From NCBI GenBank assembly GCA_947184155.2, contig CAMXCT020001128.1, forward strand, positions 1 through 64,000: a DNA stretch of 64,000 nt, given 5' to 3'. The notes beneath the pieces are model-generated. The model searched no databases, had not been told where the DNA came from, and was given only the letters and a program-made list of their open reading frames with translations. Made by a program: the position numbers and the translations under genes. Source of the stretch: Cladocopium goreaui. Taxonomy: Eukaryota; Sar; Dinophyceae; Suessiales; Symbiodiniaceae. Every line of letters begins with the position of its first letter. The stretch's first letter is position 1. Shown here piece after piece: positions 30,000 through 55,253 of this stretch.

Positions 30000-30229
30000 T
30001 GCACTAGCCGGCCAAAAAAAGACCATGCTACAGGGTTTTCAATTCCTCCTTGACACCCCACTAACACAAAGGATTTTTCGATTTCTATTTTATTTGACTT
30101 GGAGCTGTGGCTTCTCCGTCGCAACTGACCCACTTGATTGAGGACTGGATTTCACTTTTTTCATTTTTGTGAATATTATCAATTTCGGGATTGGCTTTCT
30201 TCTGCAATTCTTGATGCTTCAGCCGTTGT

Positions 30230-30255
30230 TGCACTATTTCTCGTATTTGTGACAG
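30230..30255 (+). promoter_or_regulatory. putative trans-splice acceptor
   Basis: GCACTATTTCTCGTATTTGT followed by GACAG lies eight bases before the ATG at 30264. Confidence 0.4.
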
Positions 30256-30263
30256 TTTCACCC

Positions 30264-30989
30264 ATGGAACACAAACGAGACGCGACCGTGGCGGGCTTGT
30301 CTTGGCCTGCGAACTCTACTCGTGGACTCGCTCCTACCGACCCAGTTCAAGTACCAGACGCCTCGACTTCTGCACTATGTCACTCAGGAGCTCCCGACAC
30401 TACGACCAACCCTACTCCGGCACCTTTGGTAACTGACAGTACGGCACCTGCTACGGGTACACTGGCCCATTCTGATACATATTCAGGACCAGCACCTCCT
30501 GGCGTTCCATTTCCGACAGACTCAAGTTCTACACACAACTACTTCCATCGTGCTCAGTTCTCTTCTCGCGTGGTTCACCAGATCCAATTCAAGGTCATTA
30601 CCCACTCCAACAACACCAGGGAGCTATTCATTGAAGAAATTCCTTTGTTAGGGCATTCCCGATGTCGTGACCCTGAACACTATTTCTATGGTCTCTCCGG
30701 CAACTGGGAGTGGTCCCTGCGCACAGCGGACTATTGGCGACATCATTTTGAGATTCCCCTTGTACATGGACACCATCCTTTTCACAATGTGCCCATTGAG
30801 ACGACATCTCCTGGAGATGAACCAAGGCTGACCACCCGGATCCATGAATTAGCCAAAGATCTATCTGACACCTTGAAGGCTGCTACGGCATCGGGGGAAT
30901 TCGATCAGACTTGGGCGATGGTTGAACGCATGAGCTTCCACGATGCTATGGAAGTCCTTCTACAAGCTCCGAATTCCTCTTCTGACTGA
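30264..30989 (+). CDS. accessory protein H (paralogue of the gene at 28535)
   Basis: Start set at ATG 30264 (MEHKRDATVAGLSWP), eight bases after an acceptor-like CAG. The 241-residue product begins with about 90 residues rich in Ala, Pro, Ser and Thr. The central globular part (VVHQIQFKVITHSNNTRELF, EWSLRTADYWRHHFEIPLV) matches gene F in order and spacing. The C-terminus is helical (IHELAKDLSDTLKAA, MVERMSFHDAMEVLLQ). It is the last gene before the right terminal repeat, 110 bp away. No known family. Confidence 0.6.
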   Translation: MEHKRDATVAGLSWPANSTRGLAPTDPVQVPDASTSALCHSGAPDTTTNPTPAPLVTDSTAPATGTLAHSDTYSGPAPPGVPFPTDSSSTHNYFHRAQFSSRVVHQIQFKVITHSNNTRELFIEEIPLLGHSRCRDPEHYFYGLSGNWEWSLRTADYWRHHFEIPLVHGHHPFHNVPIETTSPGDEPRLTTRIHELAKDLSDTLKAATASGEFDQTWAMVERMSFHDAMEVLLQAPNSSSD

Positions 30990-31080
30990 AGTGACCGCCC
31001 TTTTGTACATTAGGTTATTACAGGTTCACTTTCACTGGTGTCTTGCCGATTCCGCCAGCGAAGTTCTTCCAAAAAACCGA

Positions 31081-31097
31081 CCTCGCTACATGCGAGG
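31081..31097 (+). other. short hairpin at the junction with the right terminal repeat
   Basis: CCTCGC-TACAT-GCGAGG is a perfect 6-bp stem directly before the right terminal repeat. It could act in 3' processing or termination; this is inference. Confidence 0.4.
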
Positions 31098-31098
31098 T

Positions 31099-31679
31099 GT
31101 GTGTGTGTGTACCATCTGAACAGATGTAAAACTTCTGATTGGTTTTCACTAATTTGCAGGGGGCCACGGCTCCATTCATCAGTCCGTGGCCAACGAAGCT
31201 ACTGATGTTTGGAGAGGATATGCAGTCTGATCAACTGCACGTACCTGCTTTTTTTTCGGACATAGCAAGGGGCCAAGCTTAGAACCCCAACCACAATATT
31301 ATACAATTTGCTGCACTGTTGTCGCAATCTGGAATCAATTTTGAAATTTACATGCATCAGAACCTTCCTCAGATTTTCGCCGAAACCATATCGCCGACAG
31401 TATTATGTTTTTTGACTTATTTTCGCCGAGATCCTGTCGCCGACGAACTATGGGTTATTTTGGGAAACAATCGCCGAAACATTATTTTGGATTTCCACAT
31501 GCTGGTCAAAACTCTATGGAATCTGGTTATGACTACGTTTGACAATTTCGGATGCCCTACATCGTTTGCGAGAAGTACCTCATGTGGCTCTTTTATTCAT
31601 CTAATAATCTAGGCTGGTTTGCATGTTTCAGGATTCAGTTCCTGCCGGATCATATAATGATCCATTCTTGTCTAGTGTG
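31099..31679 (+). repeat. right terminal direct repeat of the Penelope-like element
   Basis: This is a 581-bp copy of the left repeat with about 1% substitutions and two small indels. The CAG acceptor-like site, the 8-bp hairpin (31162-31191) and all five TCGCCGA heptamers are kept. Confidence 0.9.
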
Positions 31680-31831
31680 TGTGTATGTGTGTGTGACAGT
31701 GTGTGCGTACCGACTTGTTTACGTACTCATTGATGAATTTGTATACGATTACGTGTTTGTTGATTGATATATTATATCATATACATTATTACAAATAATT
31801 AATATATATATGTGTGTGTGTCGTGCGTGTG

Positions 31832-35829: not shown

Positions 35830-36063
35830 TGTGAATCGGAGGTTGTCTCCCCGATTATGTATTGTTGCTTTGTCTTGGGGTTGATGTCCAAAAAAACGAC
35901 GACGTCACGATGAATGCAGTTTCGGCATGGCGTTGTTTCTCGCTCTTGACATCTGCAGTAGTCTTGAGCCAAAGGGGCATTTTATGCACACCTTTGGTTA
36001 TGGACGATAGTAGGATGTCTTTGTGGGATTATGTACTGTGCCGTAGCCTACATCCTATTCGCA
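35830..36063 (-). repeat. 3' LTR of the copia-class element
   Basis: 234 bp, ending TGTGAATCGG on the left and TATTCGCA on the right (+ strand). It is nearly identical to 55023-55253. Confidence 0.95.
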
Positions 36064-36071
36064 CCCCCCAC
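36064..36071 (-). other. polypurine tract
   Basis: On the - strand GTGGGGGG lies directly before the TG of the 3' LTR, the expected position for the plus-strand primer. Confidence 0.6.
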
Positions 36072-36585
36072 GCATGGCCAACTTCGTTGGCCACGCGCAA
36101 AGGAGTGTCCTTTAAATCGTTCCAATACATCTGCAGCTGTTCATTTGTCGAATTAAGGAGAGCTAAAGTCCGTTTCAGAACTTCCAATCTACATGGCGGC
36201 TTGCTACGATCTCTACCAAAAAATATAAAAGATCTGTTCACGTGCACGCAGACACGACGTAGTCGGTGTCTAGCGTTGAGGTTCATCCGATGTGGCGTAG
36301 CCAGCATGGATTCCCACTCAAGCATGTGAATTAAAAATCAAACACAAAGATGACTATGGAACTAGAAGTTTACCTTCCCGTTCCTTCGTCGGTTGAGATG
36401 TAGACCGCTGTAGAAACTCAGCGTCTCATGCAATGATGTTCAAAAAAAATGTGTGGTTACAAATTAGCCGGCTCAGAGTCCTCTCAGAAATCATTCGAAA
36501 TGAAGTAGAGGTAAATCTCGAGCACTGATTGCATCCTCGCATCGCCAGGTTCAATCAGGACCCATGCAGAGGTCAGATCGCTTGA
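36072..36585 (-). other. 3' untranslated region of the copia-class element
   Basis: About 510 bp between the last stop codon and the purine tract, with no further domain recognised. Confidence 0.5.
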
Positions 36586-39500
36586 TCATCTATATCCCCA
36601 TCCATAGTATCCCTGATGATTCCAGTCTCCGCCACGATGTGAATAAGATCTTCCACCTTTTCCTTGGTCTTTTCCACCCTTCTTTGGCGGGGTCACTGGA
36701 GCTTGTTTTGGCGGAGGAGCGGTTTCAACTGTTCTCCATGTTGCTGACGATGATGCTTTCGCTTTTGACGCTCGTCCCAGTGCTGGTTCTGCCTTCGGGG
36801 CTGCTTTCGATTTGCCAGCGGCTTGGTCGGTGCGTTCACGATCAGCAGGAGTTGGGGTATCAGCAATCGCAAGTATGTGAGCTTCTGTCAAGTGAATGCC
36901 CCACCTTGGTCGTTGATCTTCCCTTTGCTTGATGTGATTGTAATCATCGATTGCATCATATAGCTTCTGGAGTAGAGGTCGTGGCAATTGTCGGCCATTC
37001 TGAAGGATCAGGTGTAAAAGTGAAATTCTTCGAAGTGGTGGACGAAGAGCACACACAATGTCAACTGGGTTCAATGTGATTGTGTCTTGAAAGTCGACGT
37101 TCCTGAAGAAATAAACAGCATTTACCCTATATGCACCTGCAATGATTCTTCTGACCAAGACGTCTTGTCGGTCAAGGGCGTCGCGGGCCGCTGTGGTCTT
37201 CCTCATCTCGTCCATTGTTGTGTCACGTTTCGACAGCTTCTCCATCTCCTCATCAAAGAAGATGTTCTGCAAGTCATCATACGTGTAGCCACATTCAAGG
37301 GTATATACGAGAAGTCGCTTGAGCACTACTGCTCCGTAATAAGCATTGACGAATCCCTCTTCTCCGATGTCGTCCTTTTGATTTGGTCGGCCGATCTCTT
37401 TGTAGAGCTCTTTCATCTGTTGTGCAGTTGGTTCAATGAGTTCACCATTTTCATCCTCGCCCAGGTAAGGTGTCCTTGAGTCCAGGTCCATCCTAAATTT
37501 CTGGTTCTGTTGAAAATGTTTCCATGCCGTCCCAATGTCTCCACAGAAGTTCCGTTGGAATAGTCTGTAGATCCTGACGATATGTAGTCCCATCTGCAAC
37601 AGGAGGATCTTGATGAATTCTGGTTGAGCATCTCCAATTGTGCAAGGCTCGATTGGCAGGACCTTTGATCCAAACTCAATTCGCTGCATCCACTTGGGGT
37701 ACTCAATCTCTGCATCACGAGCTTCTCCAGCCTCGTACTCTTCAATGTTGATCTCATCGACCGCTGTTTCTTCAACATCATTCTCGTCGGTCGGTTTTCC
37801 CTCTTGATTGAGAAATTCGTCGACCTCATCTTGCTCTCTGAAGTCTCTTTTCTCGTCATTGATGTCGCCCTTCTTCGAGGCTTGGTCATCATTTTCTTCT
37901 TCTGGTTGAGGTTCCTGCTCTGGACTCTTCATGGTGACGTCATCATCACCTGGCATTGTCTCATCATTATCATCATCACCTGTCAAATCGATCTTCACCT
38001 CTTCCCATGCTTTCTTGACATGGTCTTTGAGATCTTCTTCTCGATGATGTGATTCGGCTTTTGGTACTGTCGCCACGGTGATTTTGATTCGCTTCCTCCA
38101 TCCATGACTCACCAAAAATCCTTTGCACATCACACAAATTGACAAAGGCGCAGGGGTTTCCAACAGACATGCGGGGCATAGTCGATGGTCCTCTTTGCTA
38201 GGATGATGGGTGACTGCCAATAATGAAATTGCATCATTCCAATCCGGATGTCCAGGGAACAATCTGTGAGTATGACTGAAGTGGCCTGTCCTGATATCGA
38301 CAAGTTTTCGAAGTTCGTCAAGATCGGGTGATGATTCTTCAGGCACAATGTTTCCAATGAGCTTGTCAAATCGTTCAATGGTGGCCACTCTCTTTGCTCC
38401 TTGCACAGAAAGAACAAGTTGATCTCTTCCCTTTGTGATCATGAGACGGTAATAGTCCTTTTCTTTCCAATCATAATACCAAACTGCATCGAATGATTCG
38501 AATGGAATTGTTTCTTGGACCAAAATGTGTCCGTCTGCTGACAATCTGGGGGAGAACTTGGCGATGGAATCGTATGTGATGTAGATGTAGACAAGATCAG
38601 TTTGATCAATTTTCTTGAATCTCAGCACCATCTGACTTCTAACATCCCACGGCGCGAATGGCACGAAGAACGTATTGATGCGGTCGCCTCCTCCTCCGGG
38701 ACGTAGTCCTTCTCTGAAGATTTGGGCGATGTTGTCAAATGTGGTGCAGTGAAATCCTCCTCCAAGAGTGTATCCTACTCCAGGGTTCATCTGATAGGAA
38801 GTCTTCTTGTCTTCGATTTGTACACCGCCTTGAACTCTTGAATGTGCCATAGGAGCTCGGATTGCCACTGGCCAAAGCCAAATCTCTCGATCTGCTGTGC
38901 CGATCTCCAACCTCAGTGTTTGTCGATCAAGTCTTGAGGTCAATCCATCATCAAAATTGTTCAAGAGGTATTCCAACTCAGCCTTTGTGACTTTGAGTCC
39001 TAGCACTTGAGCTCGGATTCTCTTCGTTTGCTTGTACTCGGTGAAAATCACTCTCTGGAAATTGTTCCACCTCTCAACAAGTATCGGGTAGTTGACGTGT
39101 GTCGTTCCAGCCAATGTGTGTTGGTCTCTCCAAATAGCATCGTACTTCAAGATCGACTCAACATTGACCCAACCCGCCTCATCGCATGGAAGTCCACGGT
39201 GATTTCGATTGTCTCTGACGCAACCCACGGAGTGGCGTAGCGCAGCATTGAACCTTTTCGACAGTTCAACCATCCATGGCGGATTTTCCCACTTGTTGCC
39301 CATCCACTCATTCTCGCTGTATCGATGCACCTTCCACCAGCCCATTCCAAGGTATTCTTCTCCATTGATGCGGGCAAGTTGAAGTGTACCAATATTGTGA
39401 CCATGTGTGAATGGTTGGATGTACTTGAAGTTCCAGTTGTTTCCATGTTGTTTTCTTTCCTCAGTAAGCCATTTCATGTAGACATCATGATCAATATGTT

Positions 39501-40863
39501 TCAAAGCATTCAGCTCTTCAATGGTCGGCAAAACAGGCGGGGACTCCTCAGCTGCACGTTCAATCAGCATGTCAAGCTCATGACGATTCTTCACACCTCG
39601 GCTAATTGGGTTGACCTCGACACCATTCACTAAGTATTGTCCTCCTTCTTCACGATCACCAATATCGTACATAAAGGCTGACTGACTGTAGAAGCACTTG
39701 GTCACTTCCTCTTTCTCAGTGAATCTGGTTCTTCCCCAACGCTTTCCTCGTGGCATGACGTTCTTTGGGAGCTTGTCTTTCCTGCCTCTGGTCGCAGCTT
39801 TGGATCTTTCGGACGATGGTGGGGATTTGGACTTCTGATCCATGATCAACCTCATGCGCCAAATGGTGTCCCTCATGTTCTCATCATCTGGTGTAGTGCA
39901 TTCATCAATGCCATGTCTTCCACCACAAATGAAACAATATTGAACATCCAAGGCATCTGAAATCAACTTCTCAAATCGATCACGGATGTCACGCACCTCA
40001 GTTCGGCGCTTCTTCGCTTCTGAAGGTTGTCCCCCCACGTCATCTTCCTCCTCCTCAATCTCGATGTCACCAGCTCCAGCATCGGTTTCTCCTGAAGTTT
40101 GTTCTGCTCGAGGGCCCCGCGCCGTAGGCGTCGTGGTCTCCTCATCAGGTTCATTAACTTCATCCACCTCTTCATCGCTTGATGAGACTTCAATCATCTC
40201 AGGGTGGTCATCGTAGTTGGCTTTTGGGAGCACTGGCATTCTGGTGATCTTCTTCTGCATGAGTAGGTCAAAAATTCCCGCTTCTTTCAGGATTGTAATC
40301 ACCATGTCATTCTCGACCGGTGGAATGTATGCTTTCCTGGATCGGTTCCTCTTTGTGTTGATGGTGTCGGTAGGTCGACATGAACTGCTGAATAGCCAGA
40401 ACGATTCTTCCAGTCCTGCGAGGCAATTGTCAAGGTTTGCCCCCCATCCAGCGAACATAGTAGGAAATTGAATACCCAGGTCAAGCATTCCAAGCCAGAA
40501 TTCGAAAATGTCGCCGACATACTCAGCTGTTGCAGTTGGATTGATCATTGATTCGATCTCCTCCTTGGTCAGCACGGTCTTCATGTAGTCATGATAAGCG
40601 ACGTTTCCACCATCCCAAAGCAGTCTGTAAAACCATCGCATTCGGTGCATTCCACCTCCGCAATCCTCTGTACGAGTCTCACGTTGTACAGTGAATCGGG
40701 GTAACAGGTCTCGTCTGCATTTCCCTTTCACCATGTATGCAGGCATTCGGATGGCACCTCGATGTGATACCTGCTTGAGCACATCACTTGTCGTCTTGTA
40801 TCCTGAAAGCATTGCAAGTGTCGCAGTGACCAGGAATCCACGTAGGTCTTTCTCGGCCTCCAT
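36586..40863 (-). CDS. retrotransposon-encoded polyprotein part with Tpt1/KptA-like RNA 2'-phosphotransferase domain
   Basis: This is a 1425-codon frame. A CCHC-like knuckle (CFICGGRHGIDEC) lies near residue 313. Residues about 530-800 match the two-part Tpt1/KptA fold. The N-terminal lobe has LSKRFNAALRHSVG and GLPCDEAGWVNVESILKY. The NAD-binding lobe has IRAPMAHSR, GGFHCTTFDNIAQIFREGL, GDRINTFF and GHILVQETIPF. Candidate catalytic residues are Arg543, His674, Arg676 and Arg728. Tpt1 enzymes transfer a 2'-phosphate from spliced RNA to NAD+. A Zn-ribbon-like CPAC...CVMC (about 896-917), a long acidic region and a Gly/Arg-rich tail follow. The frame opens without its true start: sense runs in from the previous frame across a break near 40.9 kb. 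Confidence 0.75.
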   Translation of the reverse strand: MEAEKDLRGFLVTATLAMLSGYKTTSDVLKQVSHRGAIRMPAYMVKGKCRRDLLPRFTVQRETRTEDCGGGMHRMRWFYRLLWDGGNVAYHDYMKTVLTKEEIESMINPTATAEYVGDIFEFWLGMLDLGIQFPTMFAGWGANLDNCLAGLEESFWLFSSSCRPTDTINTKRNRSRKAYIPPVENDMVITILKEAGIFDLLMQKKITRMPVLPKANYDDHPEMIEVSSSDEEVDEVNEPDEETTTPTARGPRAEQTSGETDAGAGDIEIEEEEDDVGGQPSEAKKRRTEVRDIRDRFEKLISDALDVQYCFICGGRHGIDECTTPDDENMRDTIWRMRLIMDQKSKSPPSSERSKAATRGRKDKLPKNVMPRGKRWGRTRFTEKEEVTKCFYSQSAFMYDIGDREEGGQYLVNGVEVNPISRGVKNRHELDMLIERAAEESPPVLPTIEELNALKHIDHDVYMKWLTEERKQHGNNWNFKYIQPFTHGHNIGTLQLARINGEEYLGMGWWKVHRYSENEWMGNKWENPPWMVELSKRFNAALRHSVGCVRDNRNHRGLPCDEAGWVNVESILKYDAIWRDQHTLAGTTHVNYPILVERWNNFQRVIFTEYKQTKRIRAQVLGLKVTKAELEYLLNNFDDGLTSRLDRQTLRLEIGTADREIWLWPVAIRAPMAHSRVQGGVQIEDKKTSYQMNPGVGYTLGGGFHCTTFDNIAQIFREGLRPGGGGDRINTFFVPFAPWDVRSQMVLRFKKIDQTDLVYIYITYDSIAKFSPRLSADGHILVQETIPFESFDAVWYYDWKEKDYYRLMITKGRDQLVLSVQGAKRVATIERFDKLIGNIVPEESSPDLDELRKLVDIRTGHFSHTHRLFPGHPDWNDAISLLAVTHHPSKEDHRLCPACLLETPAPLSICVMCKGFLVSHGWRKRIKITVATVPKAESHHREEDLKDHVKKAWEEVKIDLTGDDDNDETMPGDDDVTMKSPEQEPQPEEENDDQASKKGDINDEKRDFREQDEVDEFLNQEGKPTDENDVEETAVDEINIEEYEAGEARDAEIEYPKWMQRIEFGSKVLPIEPCTIGDAQPEFIKILLLQMGLHIVRIYRLFQRNFCGDIGTAWKHFQQNQKFRMDLDSRTPYLGEDENGELIEPTAQQMKELYKEIGRPNQKDDIGEEGFVNAYYGAVVLKRLLVYTLECGYTYDDLQNIFFDEEMEKLSKRDTTMDEMRKTTAARDALDRQDVLVRRIIAGAYRVNAVYFFRNVDFQDTITLNPVDIVCALRPPLRRISLLHLILQNGRQLPRPLLQKLYDAIDDYNHIKQREDQRPRWGIHLTEAHILAIADTPTPADRERTDQAAGKSKAAPKAEPALGRASKAKASSSATWRTVETAPPPKQAPVTPPKKGGKDQGKGGRSYSHRGGDWNHQGYYGWGYR

Positions 40864-42713
40864 TTCTCTCCAGTCAACACACTCATTGTAAATGTTGAGT
40901 AATCTTGCGCTACTCTTGCATCCTGTGAAAATTCATCCATACCAATGTCTTCAGTACCGTAGATTGCCGCCCTTGTCCAATTGCTTGCGCAATTCAGGCA
41001 TCTTGTGCGGTTCTCAGTGCAGGTATTCAATCTTGAATCATTCTTGTGAAATCCTTTGCACACATCGCACATCAATTCGGAATCTTCGGTGACCTCGACC
41101 CAATGCTCATCCACATCTGTCAGGGGCTCCGGGGTAAATACTCCTCGTCGGATGTCTGACCATGCTCTTCTCTGAACCGCATCCTTCATGTGTTTCATTC
41201 CTCCAATGATGTTTGCCGATCCAGCCTGAGCATCTGCGACCTCTCCAGCACGAATACTGGGAATAACGCGTGGATGTTCTGTGCATCGTTTGATGGTTTC
41301 AATGTCAAAACCGGTGTTCTTCACATGGACACATTCTTCATTCAGGTCATGGACTGTATCATGATCCATTGCACAATGTAAGAAGACCTTTTGTCGCATC
41401 AAGGACTTTTCAAGCATAGCCCAAATGACTTCCTTGCCTTCACCTTCTTTCCAATAAAAGGGTTCACGTCCACAAGCATATATCTGTTTCCAGAATCTTT
41501 CATTGGTGGAGTGAATAATGCCCTTTTCCTTCAAAATTCTTGCAAGCTCCTCGGCCATGGATACAATTGAAGATTGTGACCCAAGAAACCGGGCATCTCT
41601 CAGAATGTTGACGAAAATTGGAAGGTGAGCCGCTTGGCTGATCTCAGTGATGATCTCTGCCAACTTGGTAACGAAGTCTGCGTTTGGCATCAGTATGCGA
41701 GTTTGTCCTCTGAAAAGTGCTGCAAATGAGATCCAAATATGAACAGTGGCACTTGAAAATGCGTTCGCATTGGATCGTAGGAATGTCAATGCATTTGCTG
41801 CCAGTTTCAAGAACTCCTCGGGTTTCTCCAGAGATTCATAGGGAAGTTGGTACACCTTGATGGAAGAAAGACCCATGTTGTCGAGTCCAGTCTCGATGTC
41901 ATTGACGATTCTTGAGCTAGATCTCGTTTGATAAGTCAAATCCGTCAAGATGAGAGCTTTGTTGTTTCTCACTTGTCCTCCCAATTCATCCCATTTGTCC
42001 AACCAAGGTTCCCCAATGATGAACTGTCCAATCTTGTTCCCCAATCTTTTGAGCTTGGCACGAATTCCGCCCTCCACCGTCTCTTCAATGCCCAATGTCA
42101 ACATGGCTAGGACCTCCGTCACTGGATATCCTTTGCATCTGACAAACTCTGTGGTCGTGATGATGTAGTGGTAGAGCTTCAGCCATTCAAAATCATTCTC
42201 ATTGACCATGTGGGAATCAAGTTGGCCTTCTGTTAGCATGTTGAATGATAAGGCAGCATGAAATGTCAATCTTCTCAAATACTGCTTCCAGATCAAATTG
42301 GATCCATACTTGTGAGTAGTGTGAGGGCCCTCTACGATTGAAAGTACAAAATCTTTGCCGGATCGTAGGAATGCAATTCGCTGTTCCTCACGAGCATAGT
42401 CCTCGGCAGCATGGAGACGCACTTCCACTGTTGAAGGTTTCCTCCTCTTCATCCAATCTTCATTTGGAATCCAATTCTCATCTCTTTCTGGTTCAGCACG
42501 ACCTTGGGATGTTGCTCCAGGTCCAGATCGGAAAGCTGCATGGGTCGACGAAGATGAAGCTCCGCCAGTTGATGATCTTGGCATCTTCTTCGGCTGAATG
42601 TTCGAGCTTTGTGATTGTTGTGATGCCTTTGGTTGTGATCCCTCCGTAGGAGCGGATGTATCCTGGGCGCTAGATCCAGTTGATGTGTCATCATTCAGTT
42701 GATGTGTCATCAT
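40728..42713 (-). CDS. polyprotein part with possible SGNH-like fold and Zn-binding motif
   Basis: This 661-codon frame appears to start at ATG 42713, but that ATG lies in a 19-bp tandem duplication. It was probably an internal part of one long frame from 43947 to 36586. Residues about 1-90 are Ser/Gln/Pro-rich. Residues about 235-390 alternate strands and helices (KALILTDLTYQTRSSSRIVN, VHIWISFAALF, LPIFVNILRDARFL) in a way that resembles SGNH/GDSL hydrolases, but the catalytic Ser and His-Asp are not clear. A CDVC...CLNC set near residue 560 could bind zinc. The last 40 residues are out of frame with the next part. Confidence 0.55.
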   Translation of the reverse strand: MMTHQLNDDTSTGSSAQDTSAPTEGSQPKASQQSQSSNIQPKKMPRSSTGGASSSSTHAAFRSGPGATSQGRAEPERDENWIPNEDWMKRRKPSTVEVRLHAAEDYAREEQRIAFLRSGKDFVLSIVEGPHTTHKYGSNLIWKQYLRRLTFHAALSFNMLTEGQLDSHMVNENDFEWLKLYHYIITTTEFVRCKGYPVTEVLAMLTLGIEETVEGGIRAKLKRLGNKIGQFIIGEPWLDKWDELGGQVRNNKALILTDLTYQTRSSSRIVNDIETGLDNMGLSSIKVYQLPYESLEKPEEFLKLAANALTFLRSNANAFSSATVHIWISFAALFRGQTRILMPNADFVTKLAEIITEISQAAHLPIFVNILRDARFLGSQSSIVSMAEELARILKEKGIIHSTNERFWKQIYACGREPFYWKEGEGKEVIWAMLEKSLMRQKVFLHCAMDHDTVHDLNEECVHVKNTGFDIETIKRCTEHPRVIPSIRAGEVADAQAGSANIIGGMKHMKDAVQRRAWSDIRRGVFTPEPLTDVDEHWVEVTEDSELMCDVCKGFHKNDSRLNTCTENRTRCLNCASNWTRAAIYGTEDIGMDEFSQDARVAQDYSTFTMSVLTGEKWRPRKTYVDSWSLRHLQCFQDTRRQVMCSSRYHIEVPSECLHTW

Positions 42714-42714
42714 T
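42677..42714. repeat. perfect 19-bp tandem duplication breaking the frame
   Basis: CAGTTGATGTGTCATCATT occurs twice back to back (42677-42695, 42696-42714). Nineteen is not a multiple of three, so the second copy shifts the frame and creates both the stop at 42691 and the apparent ATG at 42713. Confidence 0.95.
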
Positions 42715-43947
42715 CACCCATGAAGGCTCCTCATTGTTCCAGAAGTCAACTTCGTCGGGTTTTCGTCCATCTTTGAAATTCAGGGGGATGTCCCAGTCAT
42801 CGAAATTGTGCATGCTGCCACCTGTTCCAGCTTGAGTGTCGGTCAATGATGTTGTAAAATCTTTGAGAGAACTATGGCAAGCATGACGTCTTTCTTTCTC
42901 GGTATATCTGGCCCCTTCATCGGCAATTGAGACGTTGTATCCATGCCCAATCAGGATTCCCAACGGAATGTCGAAGGCCTTGAGGATCGAGAACTGCAAT
43001 TCGGTCAGCTCTGCTACTCTCGGCAAATTGTTGTCTCCTCGGGCGCTGGTCTTGTGTCTCTCGAGGGTTGTGCCGAGGGCTAACAAACACAAGAAGTGGT
43101 TCTGGGCTGCACTCCTCCCTTTCGGTTGATTGGTTTCGAAAGCAATCACATCCTTCATCACATCCTGCAAGATGATCTGATCTGATGGGTTCTGCTCATT
43201 GTGATACCTCAGTGCATGTCCTAGGTGCCTCATCTGGATTTCAATCATGTGCTTCATTGCTCTTCGATAGCTGTCATTGTCAGAAGGAGACTTCGGATTT
43301 ACCTTGGTCAACTCGTCCATGACTTTGAAGTACTCGGCTGTCCTCGTTACAGCTAACCATGATGTGGCACTCGGATCTGTGTTGAAAGATGGTGTTCCTC
43401 GGTAAATCTGCTTCATACTTCGGATCTTCGCCTCAGTTTCGGCTGCAGTGGCTTGATCATCAAAGGGTTCGGGAAAGTGTCCTTTGGACAGTACGATCCA
43501 GAGCTCGTCGAGTCTGTCGTAGATCTCTTTGTCCATAAAGCGCCCCACAGTTGCATTCTCGAAAGGGCATCTGCTTGCAAAGACCTTCACGAATCTTGAT
43601 CCCTTCGACAAAAACTCCCATCCTGAACACTTCTTCTCGATGTCCTGCGCTCTCTGCAACAACTTGTAGGCTACTTCCAGAGCTTCTGCAGTGGCTTCAC
43701 TGGTGTGTCTGGAGTTTGCAAAGTATGCTGAGTAGACAACTGCAGGTGGCATACCAAACCTAATCCATTGGTTGGCTGTGTCTTCATCTGAGATCAGTCG
43801 AAAATTCGAACCTCGAGTGTCTCGGAATGGTGATGGAGTCTTGGCTGCAATGGATCCCTCGGACAACCCCTTCAGCACTCGTGATGCAACGGTGATTCGG
43901 CTTCCAGAAAATTGCCCTACTGAGTTCAGATCCTGTGTTTCGGCCAT
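42691..43947 (-). CDS. start of the third coding block of the copia-class element
   Basis: ATG 43947 (MAETQDLNSVGQF) follows about 270 bp that look non-coding although open, so it is a plausible independent start. The 418 residues are mostly helical (EATAEALEVAYKLLQRAQDI, MKHMIEIQMRHLGHALRYHN) without a recognised domain. The block continues, across the 19-bp duplication, into the 42713 and 40863 frames. This would give one third protein of about 2,500 residues carrying the SGNH-like and Tpt1-like domains. It is open to the frame upstream, so a single polyprotein is the alternative. Confidence 0.5.
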   Translation of the reverse strand: MAETQDLNSVGQFSGSRITVASRVLKGLSEGSIAAKTPSPFRDTRGSNFRLISDEDTANQWIRFGMPPAVVYSAYFANSRHTSEATAEALEVAYKLLQRAQDIEKKCSGWEFLSKGSRFVKVFASRCPFENATVGRFMDKEIYDRLDELWIVLSKGHFPEPFDDQATAAETEAKIRSMKQIYRGTPSFNTDPSATSWLAVTRTAEYFKVMDELTKVNPKSPSDNDSYRRAMKHMIEIQMRHLGHALRYHNEQNPSDQIILQDVMKDVIAFETNQPKGRSAAQNHFLCLLALGTTLERHKTSARGDNNLPRVAELTELQFSILKAFDIPLGILIGHGYNVSIADEGARYTEKERRHACHSSLKDFTTSLTDTQAGTGGSMHNFDDWDIPLNFKDGRKPDEVDFWNNEEPSWVNDDTSTE

Positions 43948-46900
43948 CCCGCTTTGTACAGAATAAAGTCGCACGGACCGTAGGTCTCGTGACAACTGCT
44001 CGAACAGCGAAAATAGTTGCACGAACCGTAGGTTTCGTAACAACCAGTCGGAGTCGAATTCAGAAAGCAGACGACACGAAAATGAAAAATGCCACGAAGA
44101 AAGAACCGAAGTTGATGTCAATCTCGAAAAGCACCAGTGCAGTAGCGATCGCTCGAACGAATGGTCAATGGCGTCGAGCTCTCGAGTAGCACAAACGGAT
44201 GTTGCCACCGACTTGATTGGGTGACTGCGGACATTCTCGGAATCACGAGACATTTCAGCTTTCAGTTGATCATCACATGCAAGCGGCTTCCAACGTTTCA
44301 TCACTCTGACGTTCACAAATGGACTATTCCTAATCACATGATCATTGATTCCATTCATGATTATCTTGGCTATCCATTTGGTGTAAACTTGAGTAATGCG
44401 AGTTTCCCTACCGGCACACTCTGCATGGTCATGACGGTGATCACATCTTCTACGAAGCTTCGGAAAAGACACCCCCCAAGTAACGATTTTCCAAGGTTTC
44501 TTGATTGGTTTGGGAGTCTCTTGAAATTGTGATTTCAAGCCATACATGCATCCATCAAACTTGTGCTCATGAGATACAGTTCCTTCTACAAGATCAATCA
44601 TTCTACGGTCCTTCCAGTAGTCGCAACCCCTAGGCAACTCAAGCAAGGCTGGCGACCCCATGTTAATAAGTTCACCAAGCATTGATGCAAACACTTCCCA
44701 CATCGCCCAGAAGATCTGCTTCTTTGCTTCGATGAGTTGTGTTGTTGCTTCGCTCACCCATCGGTTGATTCGGTTCCATGGTGAACCTCCTGTACATGGA
44801 CCTGCAAAGAACATTGAATCAAGTTTGGTCCGTAGGCATCGCCTTGCTTTACTGATTCCGTACGGAGAGAGCATGTCGTCATCTTCGGTGATTGGTACGA
44901 CATGAAACTTCATTTCGTCCTTCATTTTGTTCTGCAAGAACGTAAACCAGTTTCTCTCTTCCGAACATAACAAGACGAAGCATGGGACTGCTTGAGGAAC
45001 TTCGATCAAATTGATTGCAAGGGAAAACTTCGCAAATTTTGATGTCATCAAGTCACATGGCGATTTGGAAAATTGAAATTCCAAAGTTCTGTTTTTCTTT
45101 TCTCTCCAAAGGATTACCGACACTTTAGGATGGTCAACCTCATGTTTGCCTACTTCAATGTGATATTGATAGGGGACAAAAACATCAGTGATGGGAATAG
45201 TTTTCACGTCACTGCAGTTGGTGCATAGCGTGATTACTCCCTGACTCACTTTACAGCTCTTACCTCCATCGATCACTTCAGCATTGGCGAGCACCTTGAA
45301 TGTCGATTTTCCAGTCCAAAATTCATTCAACTTGTTTGTTGATTCATGATTGTCGCCTTTGAATCTCCATATGTCTTTGATCACTCGAGTGTTAGTTTTG
45401 AACTTTTGTTCAGTTTCCCTCTCATCACATATGATCCTAGGGTCACAAGGACAGTCTTCGCAATCCTGTGGTACAAAGTTTTGCCTTCTTGGCGTTTTGT
45501 GAATTCGGATCAATGTCTCTTTCCCATCCCACTGCCAATGGTCTTCATTTTTCTTGCCTAACACTTGGGATTTTCGGGTGGATTTTACAAACGGAATGTT
45601 ATCATTGATGTCCAATTCCGGATGCGAATGACATAGGCCAGGTGTTGAAGTGGACTGTGGGTGCCCCTTTCCAAGACCCTCGCTACATCCTTCACCTTCA
45701 CTCCCCCCATGAACAAGGCGCATGAGCGTATTGATCACACGTGTGGCTGGCTGAAGGCACTGGTGAATGGATTTCGGGTGTTGAGACGGTGATGTCTGTG
45801 CATCTAAAAACAAGGCATCAACCGAGAACATCAGCATTGGTGAATCGGTCAGATGCTGTACACGGTCTTGTTGTGTTGACGCACACGAGTCACGTAGTGA
45901 TCTCGAGTGGGCAGGCGGGGCATGCACGTGCTTTGACGACATCACCCGGTGGGTTGAGGTCGTTGAAACGGATTGTGAAACAGTGTCCGGGATCAACGGC
46001 TGCTTGTTTGGCGAGTGATATTGAAAACACGCTCGTTCAACCCACTTATCAAATCTGATGGCCTGCTCTGGTGGAGATGCACGGTGTTCGACCTTTGTCC
46101 AAGTACCATTGAGAAGAACCCATGTGGATCTCAATACATCTGGCGGCACAATCAGGCCGGGTGGCCTAGGACGATAAAACACCGGCTGCTTGACGACAAA
46201 AATGGGATCCATACCTGGCAAGTATTGTAGCTTCTCTTTACTAGTCAAACCCTTCCTATACACTTCTTTTGGCAAAATAGGGGTTTCCGTGTATGGGAAG
46301 TTTGGGATATCCTCAGTTTTGGATTGGAAAACTTGGCGAGTAGTCATATCGACATCGGTGCTTGGCTGCAACATGTCTAAGACTTCTTTGCTCTGCAAGT
46401 CCTGAGGTTCCAACAAGTTGATTAGCATACAAGCTTTCTTCCATGCCATGGGATTCTTGAACCCTTTAGTATGGATATCGGCTGCCATTTTGGCTGTAAT
46501 TTCATAGATCAATACAAAATGATCCTTTTGGAAATGTTCATGCATGGAGGCAATGGAAATACCATGTGTGCGCTCCAAATGACGCATGGTTGGATTCCGT
46601 CCTGATCTGACAACACCAATCATACCTTGATTATCGTCATGAAACAGGAGTTGAGGAAAAACTTTGGCTAAGACTTTCCACAGACTTAATGCGGGGATTC
46701 CTAGAGTCCTAAGTGCAGTATCTGCAGCCACAATTTCAGCTTCGGGGGTAGAATGACTAACACACCCTTGTCGCTTACTTCCACCAGCAAGTGGGAATCT
46801 TGTGAACTTACCTTGGACTTGTAAGTGCGATCCTGAAGTTGATCTCAAGGATTGGGCACATCCAGCGAAATCCGCATCTGCAAATAGTCCTAATGATAAA

Positions 46901-49005
46901 TCTTCAATTTTGTCTCCGACCCATCCTATCATTTTGAGGGACAATGTGGAATTAACATAACACATTAGGTGATGAAGACGGGCGTCATCATCCTTTGTCC
47001 ATTTAGTCACATTACGTGCTAAAGCATTGATGGATCTCAACAGGTCAAACCGCGCAATGCGGGCTGCATAAAGCAGCTTCATCAGCACACTAGCTGCATG
47101 TGGAGCTAGATTCCCACGGCTCAGCATCTCACTGTCTTGCGCACGACATGAGTTGCCAGTCTCAGAGAGAGCCGGCATATCTGGATCGAAGGAATGTGCA
47201 CACCAAGGACACTCAACTTTGCGTTTTCCATCGGAAGGAGCTCGATACGGGCTGCTTTTCGTTTCCTCTGGAAGGCTTGGAGTTGATACCTTTTTCAATT
47301 TTGTGTCCTTACCAATGATGTCAAGATACTTTTCCACCGATAACTTTAACAATCCTTCCATGTTATAAGTTATGGTCTTGACTTTCTTACCATTATGCAA
47401 TTGGGTCTCACCTTGGGATAAAACACATCCTAGGTAAAGTCCCAAGTCGGTTTCGGGTTCAATGCGCAGAACAGTGCGCAGCATTTCCCAACCTTTGGCC
47501 AGATTTTCGGAGGGCCCAGCAAGCTTAAGATCATCCACATAGATTACCAACAGCAATTTGAGCTCATCATGAAAATACATAGAAGGCCATTCCTCACCAA
47601 TGGGCTTAAAACCAATTTCTTGAACTTTCTTGTCACAATGTTGTTCCCACATCGTGCCTGAATCAGGGTGTCCATACAGGGCTTTGTCGAGTCTTACGAC
47701 AGGGCGACGAAACTTCCAATACTGTATCTCCGGAGGCCATGCATCAGTGGGTAACTCCACCCAACACAAAGGTCCCTTCAACTTAGCCTGGATGTAAGCC
47801 TGAATCGCATCTGCCAACTTGACGGAGTGCCCAGGAAGACAACCGTAAAAATCTGCCCAACGTGAGGCTTCGAAGGAAGCAGGGGAATTTCCCAAATCTT
47901 GGAAGAATGCTGCCTCCCAATGCTGATTCTTCACCTGATTCCCTAGCAGAACGCCTCTTCCCTTGAATTTTCGTCCAGGATTGTCTTCTGACAGCTGGTA
48001 ATTCTTTTCCACGCATATGCCATGGACTCTTGCCATATGTACTTCCTTTTTGTTCTTCTTGGCCTCTGCAACAACGTCGTCATATTCACGAACCATTGTA
48101 AAGTCAAATACCTCTTGATCACGAAGGCCTTTCCACTCCTTGAGCATCGCCTCTTTGGCCTTTGGGTTTGACTCAATCTCGGCTCTGCCCACAGGTCGTG
48201 AAACCATTGCATTGAAAAGTTTGCTTCCAAGACCTTCTGATGATATCTTGGTTCGGTGACTTTGATTTGATGCAGAAGTACACGGCATAGTTGGAAATGG
48301 AATGTATTCATCATCATCAGTGGCTATGTTCTTCGCGTTCTTGACGTTAACACATTTGCCATTTTTGATCATTGTCGACTCTCCTGGCGTAGCCATGGAA
48401 AACCTCGAAATCTCACCTGACAATGTGCTCCAAACTTCACCACTCCACGATGCTTTTGGGCCACGTCCTTTCTCGACCTCCGACCATTCATCCCATTCAG
48501 TGAGATATTCCTCGTCGTCCGGGACGTCAGTAGAAGCGTCGGAACATGGACTAGCATCAGCATTCCTTTTCACTTTTCGACAATCAATGTATCGTCTTCC
48601 ATGTACATCATCATCATCGACTATGTCGTACAAATCAAGATAAGTACTTGTACATGTGATAGGTAAGGTAACTTTGTTCTTCACAACTTCACCAACACCT
48701 GCATCGGATTTCTTTGACTTTGAATGAGAGTCGTCCTTCTTACTTTCATCACCACTTTCATCGTCCTTGGACTTTGGCTCGACCTTGTCTTTCTTTGAAT
48801 CTTTCTTCTCCTTCTTCGTTGCCTTCTTCTTCTTTTCCTCGACCAATCTTTTGGCTTTGTCATCGGCCTCTTTCTTCTCCAACTTCTTCTTCTCGGCTTT
48901 GAGGATGGTTTCGGTCAGATTGAGAGAGTTTGCGCCATTCTTCAGGAGAATAGGTTCCTTTGGGACGCAATGATGTTCTGAACATTCGTCTACCATCATC
49001 TCCAA
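42691..49005 (-). CDS. Ty1/copia reverse transcriptase-RNase H with methyltransferase-like extension
   Basis: A 2104-codon frame. A Lys/Glu-rich linker opens it. The RT lies at about residues 266-560 (SRPVGRAEIESNPKAKEAML, SVKLADAIQAYIQAKLKG, catalytic YVDD at about 485). RNase H is at about 700-850 (FADADFAGCAQSLRSTSGSH, STPEAEIVAAD, FHDDNQG, ADIHTKG). Residues about 1330-1540 carry FAGPCTGGSPWN, LLELPRGCDYW and CDHRHDHAEC. The Pro-Cys and Glu-x-Pro arrangement recalls cytosine C5-methyltransferase motifs IV and VI, but the SAM loop is not evident. The segment before residue about 1687 looks like leader sequence; from ATG 43947 a third coding block begins. The apparent ATG at 49005 is probably not the true start, since the frame joins the Gag-Pol frame in the overlap. 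Confidence 0.85.
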   Translation of the reverse strand: MEMMVDECSEHHCVPKEPILLKNGANSLNLTETILKAEKKKLEKKEADDKAKRLVEEKKKKATKKEKKDSKKDKVEPKSKDDESGDESKKDDSHSKSKKSDAGVGEVVKNKVTLPITCTSTYLDLYDIVDDDDVHGRRYIDCRKVKRNADASPCSDASTDVPDDEEYLTEWDEWSEVEKGRGPKASWSGEVWSTLSGEISRFSMATPGESTMIKNGKCVNVKNAKNIATDDDEYIPFPTMPCTSASNQSHRTKISSEGLGSKLFNAMVSRPVGRAEIESNPKAKEAMLKEWKGLRDQEVFDFTMVREYDDVVAEAKKNKKEVHMARVHGICVEKNYQLSEDNPGRKFKGRGVLLGNQVKNQHWEAAFFQDLGNSPASFEASRWADFYGCLPGHSVKLADAIQAYIQAKLKGPLCWVELPTDAWPPEIQYWKFRRPVVRLDKALYGHPDSGTMWEQHCDKKVQEIGFKPIGEEWPSMYFHDELKLLLVIYVDDLKLAGPSENLAKGWEMLRTVLRIEPETDLGLYLGCVLSQGETQLHNGKKVKTITYNMEGLLKLSVEKYLDIIGKDTKLKKVSTPSLPEETKSSPYRAPSDGKRKVECPWCAHSFDPDMPALSETGNSCRAQDSEMLSRGNLAPHAASVLMKLLYAARIARFDLLRSINALARNVTKWTKDDDARLHHLMCYVNSTLSLKMIGWVGDKIEDLSLGLFADADFAGCAQSLRSTSGSHLQVQGKFTRFPLAGGSKRQGCVSHSTPEAEIVAADTALRTLGIPALSLWKVLAKVFPQLLFHDDNQGMIGVVRSGRNPTMRHLERTHGISIASMHEHFQKDHFVLIYEITAKMAADIHTKGFKNPMAWKKACMLINLLEPQDLQSKEVLDMLQPSTDVDMTTRQVFQSKTEDIPNFPYTETPILPKEVYRKGLTSKEKLQYLPGMDPIFVVKQPVFYRPRPPGLIVPPDVLRSTWVLLNGTWTKVEHRASPPEQAIRFDKWVERACFQYHSPNKQPLIPDTVSQSVSTTSTHRVMSSKHVHAPPAHSRSLRDSCASTQQDRVQHLTDSPMLMFSVDALFLDAQTSPSQHPKSIHQCLQPATRVINTLMRLVHGGSEGEGCSEGLGKGHPQSTSTPGLCHSHPELDINDNIPFVKSTRKSQVLGKKNEDHWQWDGKETLIRIHKTPRRQNFVPQDCEDCPCDPRIICDERETEQKFKTNTRVIKDIWRFKGDNHESTNKLNEFWTGKSTFKVLANAEVIDGGKSCKVSQGVITLCTNCSDVKTIPITDVFVPYQYHIEVGKHEVDHPKVSVILWREKKNRTLEFQFSKSPCDLMTSKFAKFSLAINLIEVPQAVPCFVLLCSEERNWFTFLQNKMKDEMKFHVVPITEDDDMLSPYGISKARRCLRTKLDSMFFAGPCTGGSPWNRINRWVSEATTQLIEAKKQIFWAMWEVFASMLGELINMGSPALLELPRGCDYWKDRRMIDLVEGTVSHEHKFDGCMYGLKSQFQETPKPIKKPWKIVTWGVSFPKLRRRCDHRHDHAECAGRETRITQVYTKWIAKIIMNGINDHVIRNSPFVNVRVMKRWKPLACDDQLKAEMSRDSENVRSHPIKSVATSVCATRELDAIDHSFERSLLHWCFSRLTSTSVLSSWHFSFSCRLLSEFDSDWLLRNLRFVQLFSLFEQLSRDLRSVRLYSVQSGMAETQDLNSVGQFSGSRITVASRVLKGLSEGSIAAKTPSPFRDTRGSNFRLISDEDTANQWIRFGMPPAVVYSAYFANSRHTSEATAEALEVAYKLLQRAQDIEKKCSGWEFLSKGSRFVKVFASRCPFENATVGRFMDKEIYDRLDELWIVLSKGHFPEPFDDQATAAETEAKIRSMKQIYRGTPSFNTDPSATSWLAVTRTAEYFKVMDELTKVNPKSPSDNDSYRRAMKHMIEIQMRHLGHALRYHNEQNPSDQIILQDVMKDVIAFETNQPKGRSAAQNHFLCLLALGTTLERHKTSARGDNNLPRVAELTELQFSILKAFDIPLGILIGHGYNVSIADEGARYTEKERRHACHSSLKDFTTSLTDTQAGTGGSMHNFDDWDIPLNFKDGRKPDEVDFWNNEEPSWVNDDTSTE
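43971..44050 (-). promoter_or_regulatory. duplicated 32-bp motif before the third coding block
   Basis: Two copies (43971-44002 and 44019-44050) share about 26 of 32 bases around ACCGTAGGT. On the - strand they lie 25-105 nt before ATG 43947, together with AG dinucleotides after pyrimidine-rich DNA. They may be a leader or trans-splice region; this is inference. Confidence 0.35.
48860..49005 (-). other. overlap and frame change between Gag-Pro-Int and RT frames
   Basis: The two long frames overlap by 146 nt in different frames, +1 in the direction of translation. Composition suggests the sense passes from SPEEWRKLSQSDRN to KAEKKKLEKKEADD around 48910-48930. This could be a programmed +1 shift, as in yeast Ty1, or a mutation. 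Confidence 0.5.
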
Positions 49006-52000
49006 TCTTGTATGGGTAACCCTTGACGTTCAACTTGACCTTCTCACCATCGTCATTGAGGTATATCTTCCCATCTCCAGCTTTGCCCTTCTTCCAATGG
49101 TCTGGTTGGGCGTCGATCAATTCCTGGAGGGTCATCTCTTCTGGATCTTTGTCTTTGTCGAAGATATCCTCAGAGTCATCAAGAGGCTTCTTTGAAACTT
49201 TTCCACCACTTGGTCCAGGTCCACCGTCGTCTCCGTCATCAAGCTCATCATCATCCTCATCTTGGTCATGTTCATCGTCATCTCCATGAGGCACCTTGGA
49301 GGGATCGCCATCGAGGAGTTCTCTTTCTTTCATTCCTTCCAATGTGGTGTTCACCCTCTCATATTCTTGCTTGCATGGAAATGTCAATGGAGTGACCATC
49401 TCGACCTTTTCAGTCAAATGAGGTTTGAGAAGACGGTGTTCAGGTTTGCTAGCATCGTCACCAAGATTTTGATGTACAAATTCACTCAGAGGCCATACTT
49501 TGTATTGTCTTGACCAATGCATCCCTGGACCAATGTGATACCCTGCAAACACTCCTGGAATAGAATCAGGCCCAAACTTATGAAGTTGTCCCGCTTCTCT
49601 GGTCTTCGGAGGCTTGTAGTTCACACGAGCACCATAGGGAATGAGTTTGCCAGCAAATTCAGATCCATGGAGTTTGCACCAAGCGCTCAATTCATCATCG
49701 TTGGGTTCCACATTGAGTAGATGACATACGCAAAGGATTGCTGTTCTCCAGAAACATGGTGGTAATCCAGCTTCCAAAAGACATGTAGAAGTAGCTGTGA
49801 GAATAAATTGGTTCGTCCTTTCGGCAATTGAATTGGTTTGGGGTCTTCCAGGTAATGAATGATCAATTGGAATCTTCATCTCATTCATGGCTTCAATGAA
49901 TTGAGGAGCATGATCAGAGTAGGCCTGTCTAACCTTCTTGGCGCCGATGAACTGTTTCACTGCTCTAACTACATCATCTTTGGTCATTCGATCAGATGGA
50001 TAAGCACCAATGATTCCTGTATAACAGTCTCTGACAACCAACACTTCCTTCTCGAGGACCAACACGTCATCATGGACTTTGGATGTGTCCACCGCATCAA
50101 AGGTAATGAGGTCGCCAAACTTCTTGAGTTCCCTCTTGTATGCACCACGACGAGTCTTGAAATGCTTCATCTTTGCTCGAATGCATGAGTCGCAATATGG
50201 GTTCTTATACCTGTGGGTCAACTTGTGATTCAAGCTATTAGCTTCTCTCTTGAGTGTTCCTCTTTTGGCTACCCTGGATTCACCTTCAACAACATCAATC
50301 TCAATGTCATCTTCGTCACCTTCGGCGGCGTCTTCAGGAGCACCATGACCATCATCTTCAAGGTCAGTCTCGACCCCATGAGGATCGTCAATCGGAGTTC
50401 CTGGTTCGTACTCGCCGCCCTCAGGATGTTCCTCTTCTTCTTCTCCAGGAGTTGCTGAATGTTTCTGTCGGTTCATTGCTCTTTTCTTCTTCTTCACCTT
50501 GAGCTTCTTGACGTATCGGGAGCAGTTGTGATCCTCAGTTGATGTCTCAAGACCACTTTCTCCATCGAGATGTACTCTTCGTGAGGGTTGACCAACATCA
50601 TCAATGTCATTGAAATCGTTGAATCCGACATGAGAATGTGTCAATAGGTCATGGATCTTCGATGCATGATGACATTCATGAGGAGTGCATTCGTATGTTC
50701 CAAGATCAACGTAGGGGATGTTGTCATGGATTGTCAAATCGATGCGTTCTCCATTCTTCGTAATCATGAAAGGCATCTTACCAGATGGCCATACAAAGGA
50801 ATATCCTTCTTCCATGCATCGTTTCCCAAGAGACATCACGGACGGAGTGTCGTCCAGTACATAGGCATGAGAGGTCACATCAAAGGTTCCCAGGTCAATC
50901 TCTGCTTCCGTCTGAGTAGCAGTTGAACCGTTGGCTGTGTGGAACATGATAGGATCACAAGTTCGCTGCTTCAAGTTCATCCTTTCGGCTTTCCTTGCAG
51001 AAATCAAATCGTGTCCGCTGCCAGAATCCAGGATGAATCTACGATCTTTGGCTTGTACTGGTAATGAAATGCACATTATGTTCTTGGACTTCATGAGAGA
51101 GTTTCCAACTTCGTGTTCAACAAGCTCTTCAATAAAAGTCAAGTCATCACGATCATTGTCCAGTTTGATCAACATGTCGAACTTGGGGCCAATAATGACT
51201 CTAACTTCATCAACAAAACGATGGAGTCCACATCTGTCCATGATGATGGCCTTGGCCCGTGCTCGGACTAAACCGAGGGTGTTGTCGGACTTGGACTGAT
51301 CGTCGGTCAACTCGTCAATCTTCCAGAAGACATATTGCTTGTTGGGGTCACGATACATACGTTTGGGTAGTCCCTCCTGGTAGTCCTCAATAGCAATCTC
51401 GTGCACCTCAGGTTCCAGATCAAATGAGATTCTGCGATCATCAGAAGACTTCTTTGCGCTGGCTATCCTCGGAGAGGTATAATCCATGGAATCTTCATTG
51501 TCGCTATCAAAGAAGGAATCAATGGTAATGGGAGTCGCTTTCTTCTTTGGCGTCTTCTTGCTGGTTCTCTCTGAGGATGCTGAAGGCGATTTGTCTGCAT
51601 GTAGGAATTTACATTTGCTTCCGAACTTGCAGGTACCTTCTTGCCAATTCCAACATACCTTCTTTTTGGGTCCAGCTGAAGATGAACTTCCTCTACTTTT
51701 CCCTCTTGATGAATCTCGACTTCCGCTTCTGCCTTTCTTACCTTTCATCTTGGCATCATAGACCTTTTGAGAATGACTGTAAAGACATTTGTCACCTTTG
51801 TTGCATCCTCCTTTATTGAAGAAATAGTTACAGAAAATCTTCTTCTTGTCCACGGGTGAAGATGATCTTCCCTTCCCACCTTTGCCTTTCTTGTTGTTCT
51901 TGTCGGCATGGGACTTCGGAGAAGGTGTAGGAAGTACTGATGCAGCTTCACTCTTCGCTTTCGCCTTAGGACGTTTGGGAGGATCACCTGTAGACGATGC

Positions 52001-54964: not shown

Positions 54965-55022
54965 CTGTAAGGCCCGCGGCTACCCGCTCGTAGGCTCCGT
55001 AGGAGTCCTACGGCTGATAACC
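54965..55022 (-). promoter_or_regulatory. leader with primer-binding site and palindrome
   Basis: Directly after the 5' LTR the - strand reads GGTTATCAGCCGTAGG. Its complement fits an anticodon stem-loop (CUGAUAACC), one base off the initiator-tRNA loop CUCAUAACC. That is the place Drosophila copia uses for half-tRNA priming. The site overlaps a perfect 17-nt palindrome CCGTAGGAGTCCTACGG (54997-55013), a possible dimerisation or packaging signal. The leader ends in CAG directly before the ATG. Confidence 0.5.
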
Positions 55023-55253
55023 TGTGAATCGGAGGTTGTCTCCCCGATTATGTATTGTTGCTTAGTCTTGGGGTTGATGTCCAAAACGACGACGTCACGA
55101 TGAATGCAGTTTCGGCATGGCGTTGTTTCTCGCTCTTGACATCTGCAGTAGTCTTGAGCCAAAGGGGCATTTTATGCACACCTTTGGTTATGGACGATAG
55201 TAGGATGTCTTTGTGGAATTATATACTGTGCCGTAGCCTACATCCTATTCGCA
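55023..55253 (-). repeat. 5' LTR of the copia-class element with spliced-leader relict
   Basis: This is a 231-bp LTR. On the - strand, 55163-55153 reads TTTGGCTCAAG, identical to the last 11 nt of the dinoflagellate spliced leader, preceded by GCC two bases further up as in the leader. The same sequence is in the 3' LTR at about 35963-35973. An ATAAAA box lies just upstream. Confidence 0.9.

Follow-up and report, generated by a model that had tools for sequence, protein, structure and literature searches.

Tpt1 works in two steps: the 2'-phosphate of an RNA is joined to the ADP-ribose of NAD+, and RNA with a 2'-OH is then released (PMC6333775; papers are cited by their PMC numbers, and statements drawn from them refer to the accessible portions of their text). 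KptA has been described as a healer of RNA ends that bear a 2'-phosphate, and is known from jumbo phages, a mimivirus and two RNA-virus polyproteins (PMC9503650). Retrotransposons carrying an added enzyme are known from Symbiodinium, where DNA methyltransferases (DNMTs) occur in long interspersed nuclear elements (LINEs) and DIRS elements, and from a Gypsy element of a charophyte (PMC5890265). The stretch analysed here, 64 kb of the dinoflagellate Cladocopium goreaui (contig CAMXCT020001128.1, positions 1 to 64,000; the window), holds on its minus strand a 19.4-kb copia-type long terminal repeat (LTR) retrotransposon at 35830-55253, and this element encodes a domain of the Tpt1/KptA type (Table 1).

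The domain lies in open reading frame (ORF) 4. A first-pass annotation made from the sequence of the window had proposed this frame and, within it, both lobes of Tpt1/KptA in order; the frame exists and contains the peptides quoted there, and the presence of the lobes is borne out by profile comparison. In hhalign, a domain profile built from 30 near-identical rows, the window's included, matched a bridge profile of 11 other Tpt1-type domains from the same genome at 98.2% (P 3.2e-14) over residues 12-275 of 296, whereas the reversed domain reached 0.4% and 20 shuffled versions at most 8.1%, controls on which chance similarity was rejected. Partial bridges gave 95.2% (the copia B relatives described below together with a host-type gene) and 95.4% (the set without copia B), and single families gave 1.3-77.5%. 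A profile of 80-odd bacterial KptA rows and the host-type gene was matched at 84% (P 7.5e-6). Homology to Tpt1/KptA across the RNA lobe and the NAD+ lobe is thus supported by the profile comparison with its controls; a structure model lends it weaker support.

The tetrad of Clostridium Tpt1 is Arg18, His19, Arg68 and Arg121 (PMC6333775), and its counterparts by alignment in the 1425-residue frame are Arg543, His544, Arg669 and Arg748, with another IRA-like segment, at domain residues 100-102, favoured for the third position in some alignments. Further conserved positions in the domain are His674, His705 and Arg728. Of the catalytic candidates listed earlier for this frame, Arg543 therefore stands, His674 and Arg728 are conserved and lie outside the tetrad, and Arg676 corresponds to no residue named in the accessible text of PMC6333775. 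All seven positions are invariant in the window and in 29 other copies picked by similarity (one with a stop inside the domain), and by alignment the window lineage retains the residues of both reaction steps. Domain residues ~84-102 and ~131-159 (span 76-160) both resemble the NDKQRF...IRA hairpin of Tpt1, which is perhaps the trace of an internal duplication.

The first AlphaFold run (alignment A3) gave a mean predicted local distance difference test score (pLDDT) of 52.9, with the C-terminal half out of register, and was left out of the fold search. MAFFT alignment with bacterial KptA frequently misregistered Arg669 or the C-lobe, and all six motifs were in register in only 2 of 400 random row sets. 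The second alignment held 56 KptA rows picked greedily for agreement of register with hhalign, a choice that amounts to selection favouring a Tpt1 reading, and its model reached a pLDDT of 66.4 and a predicted template modelling (pTM) score of 0.60. In a Foldseek search of this model against the PDB the top 12 hits were all Tpt1/KptA structures (E 3.2e-4 to 2.9e-3), followed by a sharp gap to the next hit at E 1.9, and template modelling (TM) scores of the Tpt1/KptA hits were 0.38-0.58 when taken by target. The model supports the predicted Tpt1 fold short of proof, because KptA sequences shaped it.

That the domain is part of the element is almost certain, judging from the LTRs on both sides and from its recurrence in other copies. 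A genome search with the domain gave 883 first-look candidates, of which 132 were scored, ranked by similarity to the domain. All 132, at 95-100% identity, are complete for the domain or short of a single terminal residue; a single internal stop is found in 6, and 13 lie within open frames of at least 6125 residues, which is about the whole span from gag to Tpt1 (6126 codons in the window copy). As likeness to the domain itself decided this ranking, a second sample was anchored on the reverse transcriptase, for which a search gave 2824 candidates with 131 scored. It comprised, in list order, the first 20 hits without a listed Tpt1 partner nearby on the contig, one further hit having been skipped as too near a contig end; on tracing ~7.9 kb downstream, two of the stretches were nonexistent and one had only 373 bases, which left 17 readable. 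The Tpt1 domain was present at the expected place in 14 of the 17, the contig ending within it in one case. The 13 complete copies have no stops and an intact tetrad, with Arg for His705 in one and a match in two pieces in another. The pooled ratio of nonsynonymous to synonymous variation (pN/pS) of the domain was 0.11 in these 13 copies and 0.07 in 20 similarity-picked copies; as the copies are related by descent, the pairs behind these values are not independent.

The position of the domain between LTRs, which the first-pass annotation had taken as evidence that it belongs to the element, was correctly read. Absence from all related elements, named there as a refutation, is not observed: Tpt1 is found in other copia types of the same genome. 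The frame continuity upstream that had been invoked alongside does not hold for the window copy, whose four overlapping ORFs run from 54964 down to 36586 and imply three frame changes; unbroken frames of at least 6125 residues are found in other copies of the element. The two LTRs differ by 3 mismatches and 4 gap columns over 234. Their outer flanks, which sit within a microsatellite, read GTATG and GTATC, so that a target duplicated at 4 of 5 letters is possible. The integrase-like motifs, read by eye, lie in ORF 1, upstream of the reverse transcriptase, and the Pfam search of ORF 1 gave no integrase match. The RVT_2 reverse transcriptase of ORF 2 scores 34.9 bits, above its Pfam cut-off of 31.6, and the Pfam search of ORF 3 returned nothing. 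Two side features are shared with the copia B element at locus L041, namely CCCH zinc fingers in the gag-like part and a PC-x-GGSPW domain placed between RNase H and Tpt1. The latter had no Pfam match up to E 10; its PC motif brings cytosine methyltransferases to mind, which we offer as a mere thought.

Table 1. Features of the copia-type element in the window, in the order of the element strand.
Feature	Position	Strand	Remarks
5' LTR	55023..55253	-	231 nt; TG start and CA end on the element strand; outer flank GTATC
Primer binding site	55011..55022	-	12 nt, adjoining the 5' LTR
ORF 1	48860..54964	-	gag-like part, aspartic protease, integrase-like region
CCCH zinc finger motif	51599-51631	-	gag-like part of ORF 1; Pfam
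Aspartic protease	51008-51028	-	ORF 1; Pfam
Integrase-like region	49805-50107	-	ORF 1; motifs read by eye
ORF 2	42691..49005	-	RVT_2 reverse transcriptase, RNase H-like motif, PC-x-GGSPW domain
YVDD motif	47521-47547	-	RVT_2 reverse transcriptase, ORF 2
RNase H-like motif	46861-46890	-	ORF 2; by eye
PC-x-GGSPW domain	44776-44802	-	ORF 2; motif
ORF 3	40728..42713	-	no Pfam match
ORF 4	36586..40863	-	1425 aa; holds the Tpt1-type domain
Tpt1/KptA-type domain	38428..39315	-	296 aa, residues 517-812 of ORF 4
LRHSVG motif	39223..39240	-	N-lobe; tetrad Arg543 and His544
IRAPMAHS motif	38839..38862	-	tetrad Arg669 and conserved His674
GFHCTT motif	38740..38757	-	His705; counterpart of KptA HGT
GDRINTFF motif	38665..38688	-	conserved Arg728
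VLRFKK motif	38611..38628	-	tetrad Arg748
3' LTR	35830..36063	-	234 nt; outer flank GTATG

Relatives of the domain are numerous in the same genome. A search with PF01885 gave 1496 first-look candidates, and the 150 that were scored, which do not include the window domain, all lie above the cut-off (3 at 174-180 bits, 22 at 92-101 and 125 at 45-64). One locus (L001) resembles tRNA 2'-phosphotransferase 1 (PDB 7yw3, E 1.1e-37), and two (L002 and L003) have a bacterial look and are probably contamination. At L039-L040 a Tpt1 domain (95 bits) shares its frame with a tyrosine-recombinase-like stretch and follows a reverse transcriptase/RNase H-like region; the assignment of this locus to DIRS was made by eye, Pfam naming Tpt1 only. 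Copia B (L041-L042) has Tpt1 at 50.3 bits and RVT_2 at 16.3 bits, the latter below its cut-off, and another copia type (L143) has RVT_2 at 45.4 and Tpt1 at 57.5 bits. An element-like locus (L144, 451-6704) has RVT_1 at 21.3 bits, again below the cut-off, and a Tpt1 ORF at 50.6 bits, with a PLDc_2 (PLD-like) ORF downstream of it.

These relatives differ at the active site. Written as the tetrad plus two histidines, in the order Arg, His, Arg, His, His, Arg, the residues are RHRHHR in the L143 type (one copy) and the RVT_1 type (two copies). Copia B reads RGRHHR in 10 complete rows of B1 (one further row is partial and one has a stop at the third position) and in 4 complete rows of B2 (one more is partial). 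The DIRS type reads RHAHHR in 5 distinct complete copies, and a sixth, partial copy also has Ala, so that the third position is Ala in 6/6; L005 and L040 are one place. The matching R64A change in Runella Tpt1 slows step 2 210-fold, against threefold for step 1 (PMC6333775), and by analogy the Ala of the DIRS type predicts a reaction that halts after step 1.

In the tree, whose branches are long, the copia-borne domains form one group (ultrafast bootstrap 88) in which the window joins copia C (42), and this group adjoins bacterial KptA (77). The DIRS domains form one group (100); the tree gives no support (29, 41) to the position of the DIRS and RVT_1-type domains with respect to the eukaryotic enzymes, the grouping of the RVT_1 type with eukaryotic TRPT1 having the value 29. 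A single capture is likely to lie behind the copia-borne domains. The domains of the window, B2 and C have no relative on the viral contigs searched, on which 42 KptA loci are present. It is tempting to speculate, as a scenario that we consider doubtful as a whole, that NAD+-dependent RNA-phosphate chemistry was taken up more than once by retrotransposons of this genome, by an old copia capture (window, B and C) and by separate DIRS-like and RVT_1-type captures, that the copia form would prepare clean RNA ends for the reverse transcriptase, and that the DIRS form would have lost step 2 and leave ADP-ribose on RNA.

The most likely role of the domain in the window element, to which we give a probability of about 0.4, would be the NAD+-dependent healing of 2'-phosphorylated RNA ends. 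As a C-terminal part of a large polyprotein the domain may accompany the reverse transcriptase and use NAD+ on phosphates at RNA ends, where it would strip 2'-phosphates left after RNA cleavage or ligation. Such stripping could give a cleaved tRNA primer or a broken genomic RNA back its usable 3'-OH or a clean junction and so allow reverse transcription to proceed. A half-tRNA-type primer end bearing a phosphate would be a natural substrate, and cut genomic RNA under repair would fit equally well. Drosophila copia is reportedly primed by a half-tRNA, its primer binding site pairing with the anticodon arm of one of the host's tRNAs, and the complement of the site in the window element likewise resembles an anticodon arm. 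The 12-mer of this site occurs 920+869 times genome-wide (12+9 for its reversed control). Among the places listed on contigs C1-C179, 4 of 6 window-type copies have it 15.7-16.8 kb ahead of the domain, and in 4 of 5 rows of the 45-64-bit Tpt1 group the distance is 9.7-10.1 kb, again upstream.

Some Tpt1 enzymes are said, by the title of one study, to remove terminal 2'- and 3'-phosphates. tRNA ligases of the CPD type leave 2'-phosphates, and the genome assembly has one candidate match to the CPD of a tRNA ligase (48.2 bits). RtcB pieces, which are perhaps exons, occur on two contigs besides C1, one piece having 4 stops. C1 (7.4 Mb; L003 and L193-L197) has a bacterial look, with KptA, several RtcB matches and tRNA-Asn-like arms, and is probably assembly contamination. 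tRNA-Asn was rejected as the primer, as its arm was found twice, both times on this contig.

Several observations weigh against the assignment of the domain and the healing role. The PTS_2-RNA (PF01885) profile, whose use the first-pass annotation had proposed as a check, matches the window copy significantly (E 2.3e-4), at a score of 21.7 bits that is below the curated cut-off of 26; as this cut-off is a curator's threshold and no biological feature, the domain was filed as a divergent Tpt1-type domain by other criteria. A phmmer search of the domain against PDB sequences gave no match up to E 1, and the alignment with bacterial KptA and the host-type gene covers the N-lobe only (residues 15-102). 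The model that entered the fold search has 55 of 283 residues below a pLDDT of 50 on a register-selected alignment; its Tpt1/KptA hits have low TM-scores (0.26-0.39 by query) and a root mean square deviation of 8.5-11.1 A. The copia B relatives have Gly in place of the tetrad His, a tRNA gene with the arm matching the primer binding site was not found in the genome searches, and 3 of the 17 readable copies anchored on the reverse transcriptase lack the domain at the expected place. The flanks have a pN/pS of 0.09-0.10, similar to that of the domain, so that the constraint acts on the polyprotein as a whole and is not peculiar to the domain.

A different use of the same chemistry is conceivable, if unlikely: as an ADP-ribosyltransferase of RNA or DNA phosphates, the domain would put ADP-ribose on the terminal phosphates of the element's RNA or cDNA, a mark that protects or hides these ends, with the phosphate kept. 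Tpt1/TRPT1 enzymes ADP-ribosylate 5'-phosphate RNA and single-stranded DNA ends in vitro (PMC9458441, PMC8883491), and the consistent third-position Ala of the DIRS copies, at the position whose replacement in Runella mainly affects step 2 (PMC6333775), is in line with such a use, whereas step 1 and step 2 residues alike are in place in the window lineage. Improbable, in our estimate, is a counter-defence in which the domain mends RNAs that host RNases have cut, be they those of the element or host tRNAs. The same proposal has been made for phage and RNA-virus KptA (PMC9503650), and a pressure common to several kinds of element would agree with the presence of Tpt1 in them, but Pfam shows no RNA ligase domain in the window element.

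The strong divergence of the sequence, and relatives with an altered tetrad (Gly for His in copia B, Ala for Arg in DIRS), would also fit a domain that has lost its catalytic activity and now binds RNA or plays a structural part within the polyprotein; the intact tetrad in 13/13 complete window-type copies of the second sample speaks against this, and we hold it to be rather improbable. A chance resemblance, or a host gene fragment picked up by the element, could account for the sub-threshold Pfam score and the missing PDB sequence match, but it is very hard to reconcile with the hhalign result and its controls, the 883 first-look candidates and the 14 of 17 copies found from the reverse transcriptase.

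Elsewhere in the window, a second element at 18518-31680 (plus strand) has ~580-bp terminal direct repeats that are 98.6% identical, and four ORFs, the last of which has weak matches to RVT_1 (0.029) and GIY-YIG (0.2); because of these matches it looks Penelope-like. An ART-like YHKT motif in its ORF at 21250-22242 was considered and rejected, as Pfam was empty to E 10 and hhalign stayed below 1%. Large direct-repeat arrays of several kinds occupy 5100-16300.

Among the papers listed by literature searches on Tpt1/KptA and transposable elements, covered by titles and abstract openings with most subscription journals outside, none shows a Tpt1 carried by a retrotransposon. The word retrotransposon is missing from the accessible main text of PMC9503650; the available text of a study of retrotransposon accessory domains (PMC6338049) mentions neither Tpt1, KptA nor phosphotransferase, and that of a review of dinoflagellate genomics (PMC11453091) does not mention phosphotransferase. 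If our reading is true, an RNA-repair or ADP-ribosylation enzyme joins the equipment of LTR and DIRS-like retrotransposons, beside the DNA methyltransferases of dinoflagellate elements. It would make testable how an element gets usable RNA ends when its primers or genomes are cut RNA, and the natural active-site variants RHRR, RGRR and RHAR offer material for dissecting Tpt1 chemistry.

Compared with Ty1/copia, the window element has the same LTRs, primer binding site and protease and, as read by eye, a putative integrase-like region before RVT_2 and an RNase H-like region, and differs in its length of 19.4 kb, its CCCH-type gag zinc fingers and its long extension after RNase H with the PC-x-GGSPW and Tpt1 domains. 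The domain is like Tpt1/KptA/TRPT1 in having both lobes in order and an Arg-His-Arg-Arg tetrad, and probably in its predicted fold, and unlike them in its place in a retrotransposon polyprotein, an insertion of ~50 residues and its sub-cut-off Pfam score; the Tpt1 relatives in other elements of the genome score above the cut-off. Viral KptA is likewise found in mobile genomes, twice inside a polyprotein, but its carriers are not retrotransposons. The DNMT elements differ in the enzyme that they carry, and Copia there is without a DNMT domain (PMC5890265, accessible text); they resemble the present case in the recurrent uptake of a host-type enzyme, its conserved active site and purifying selection.

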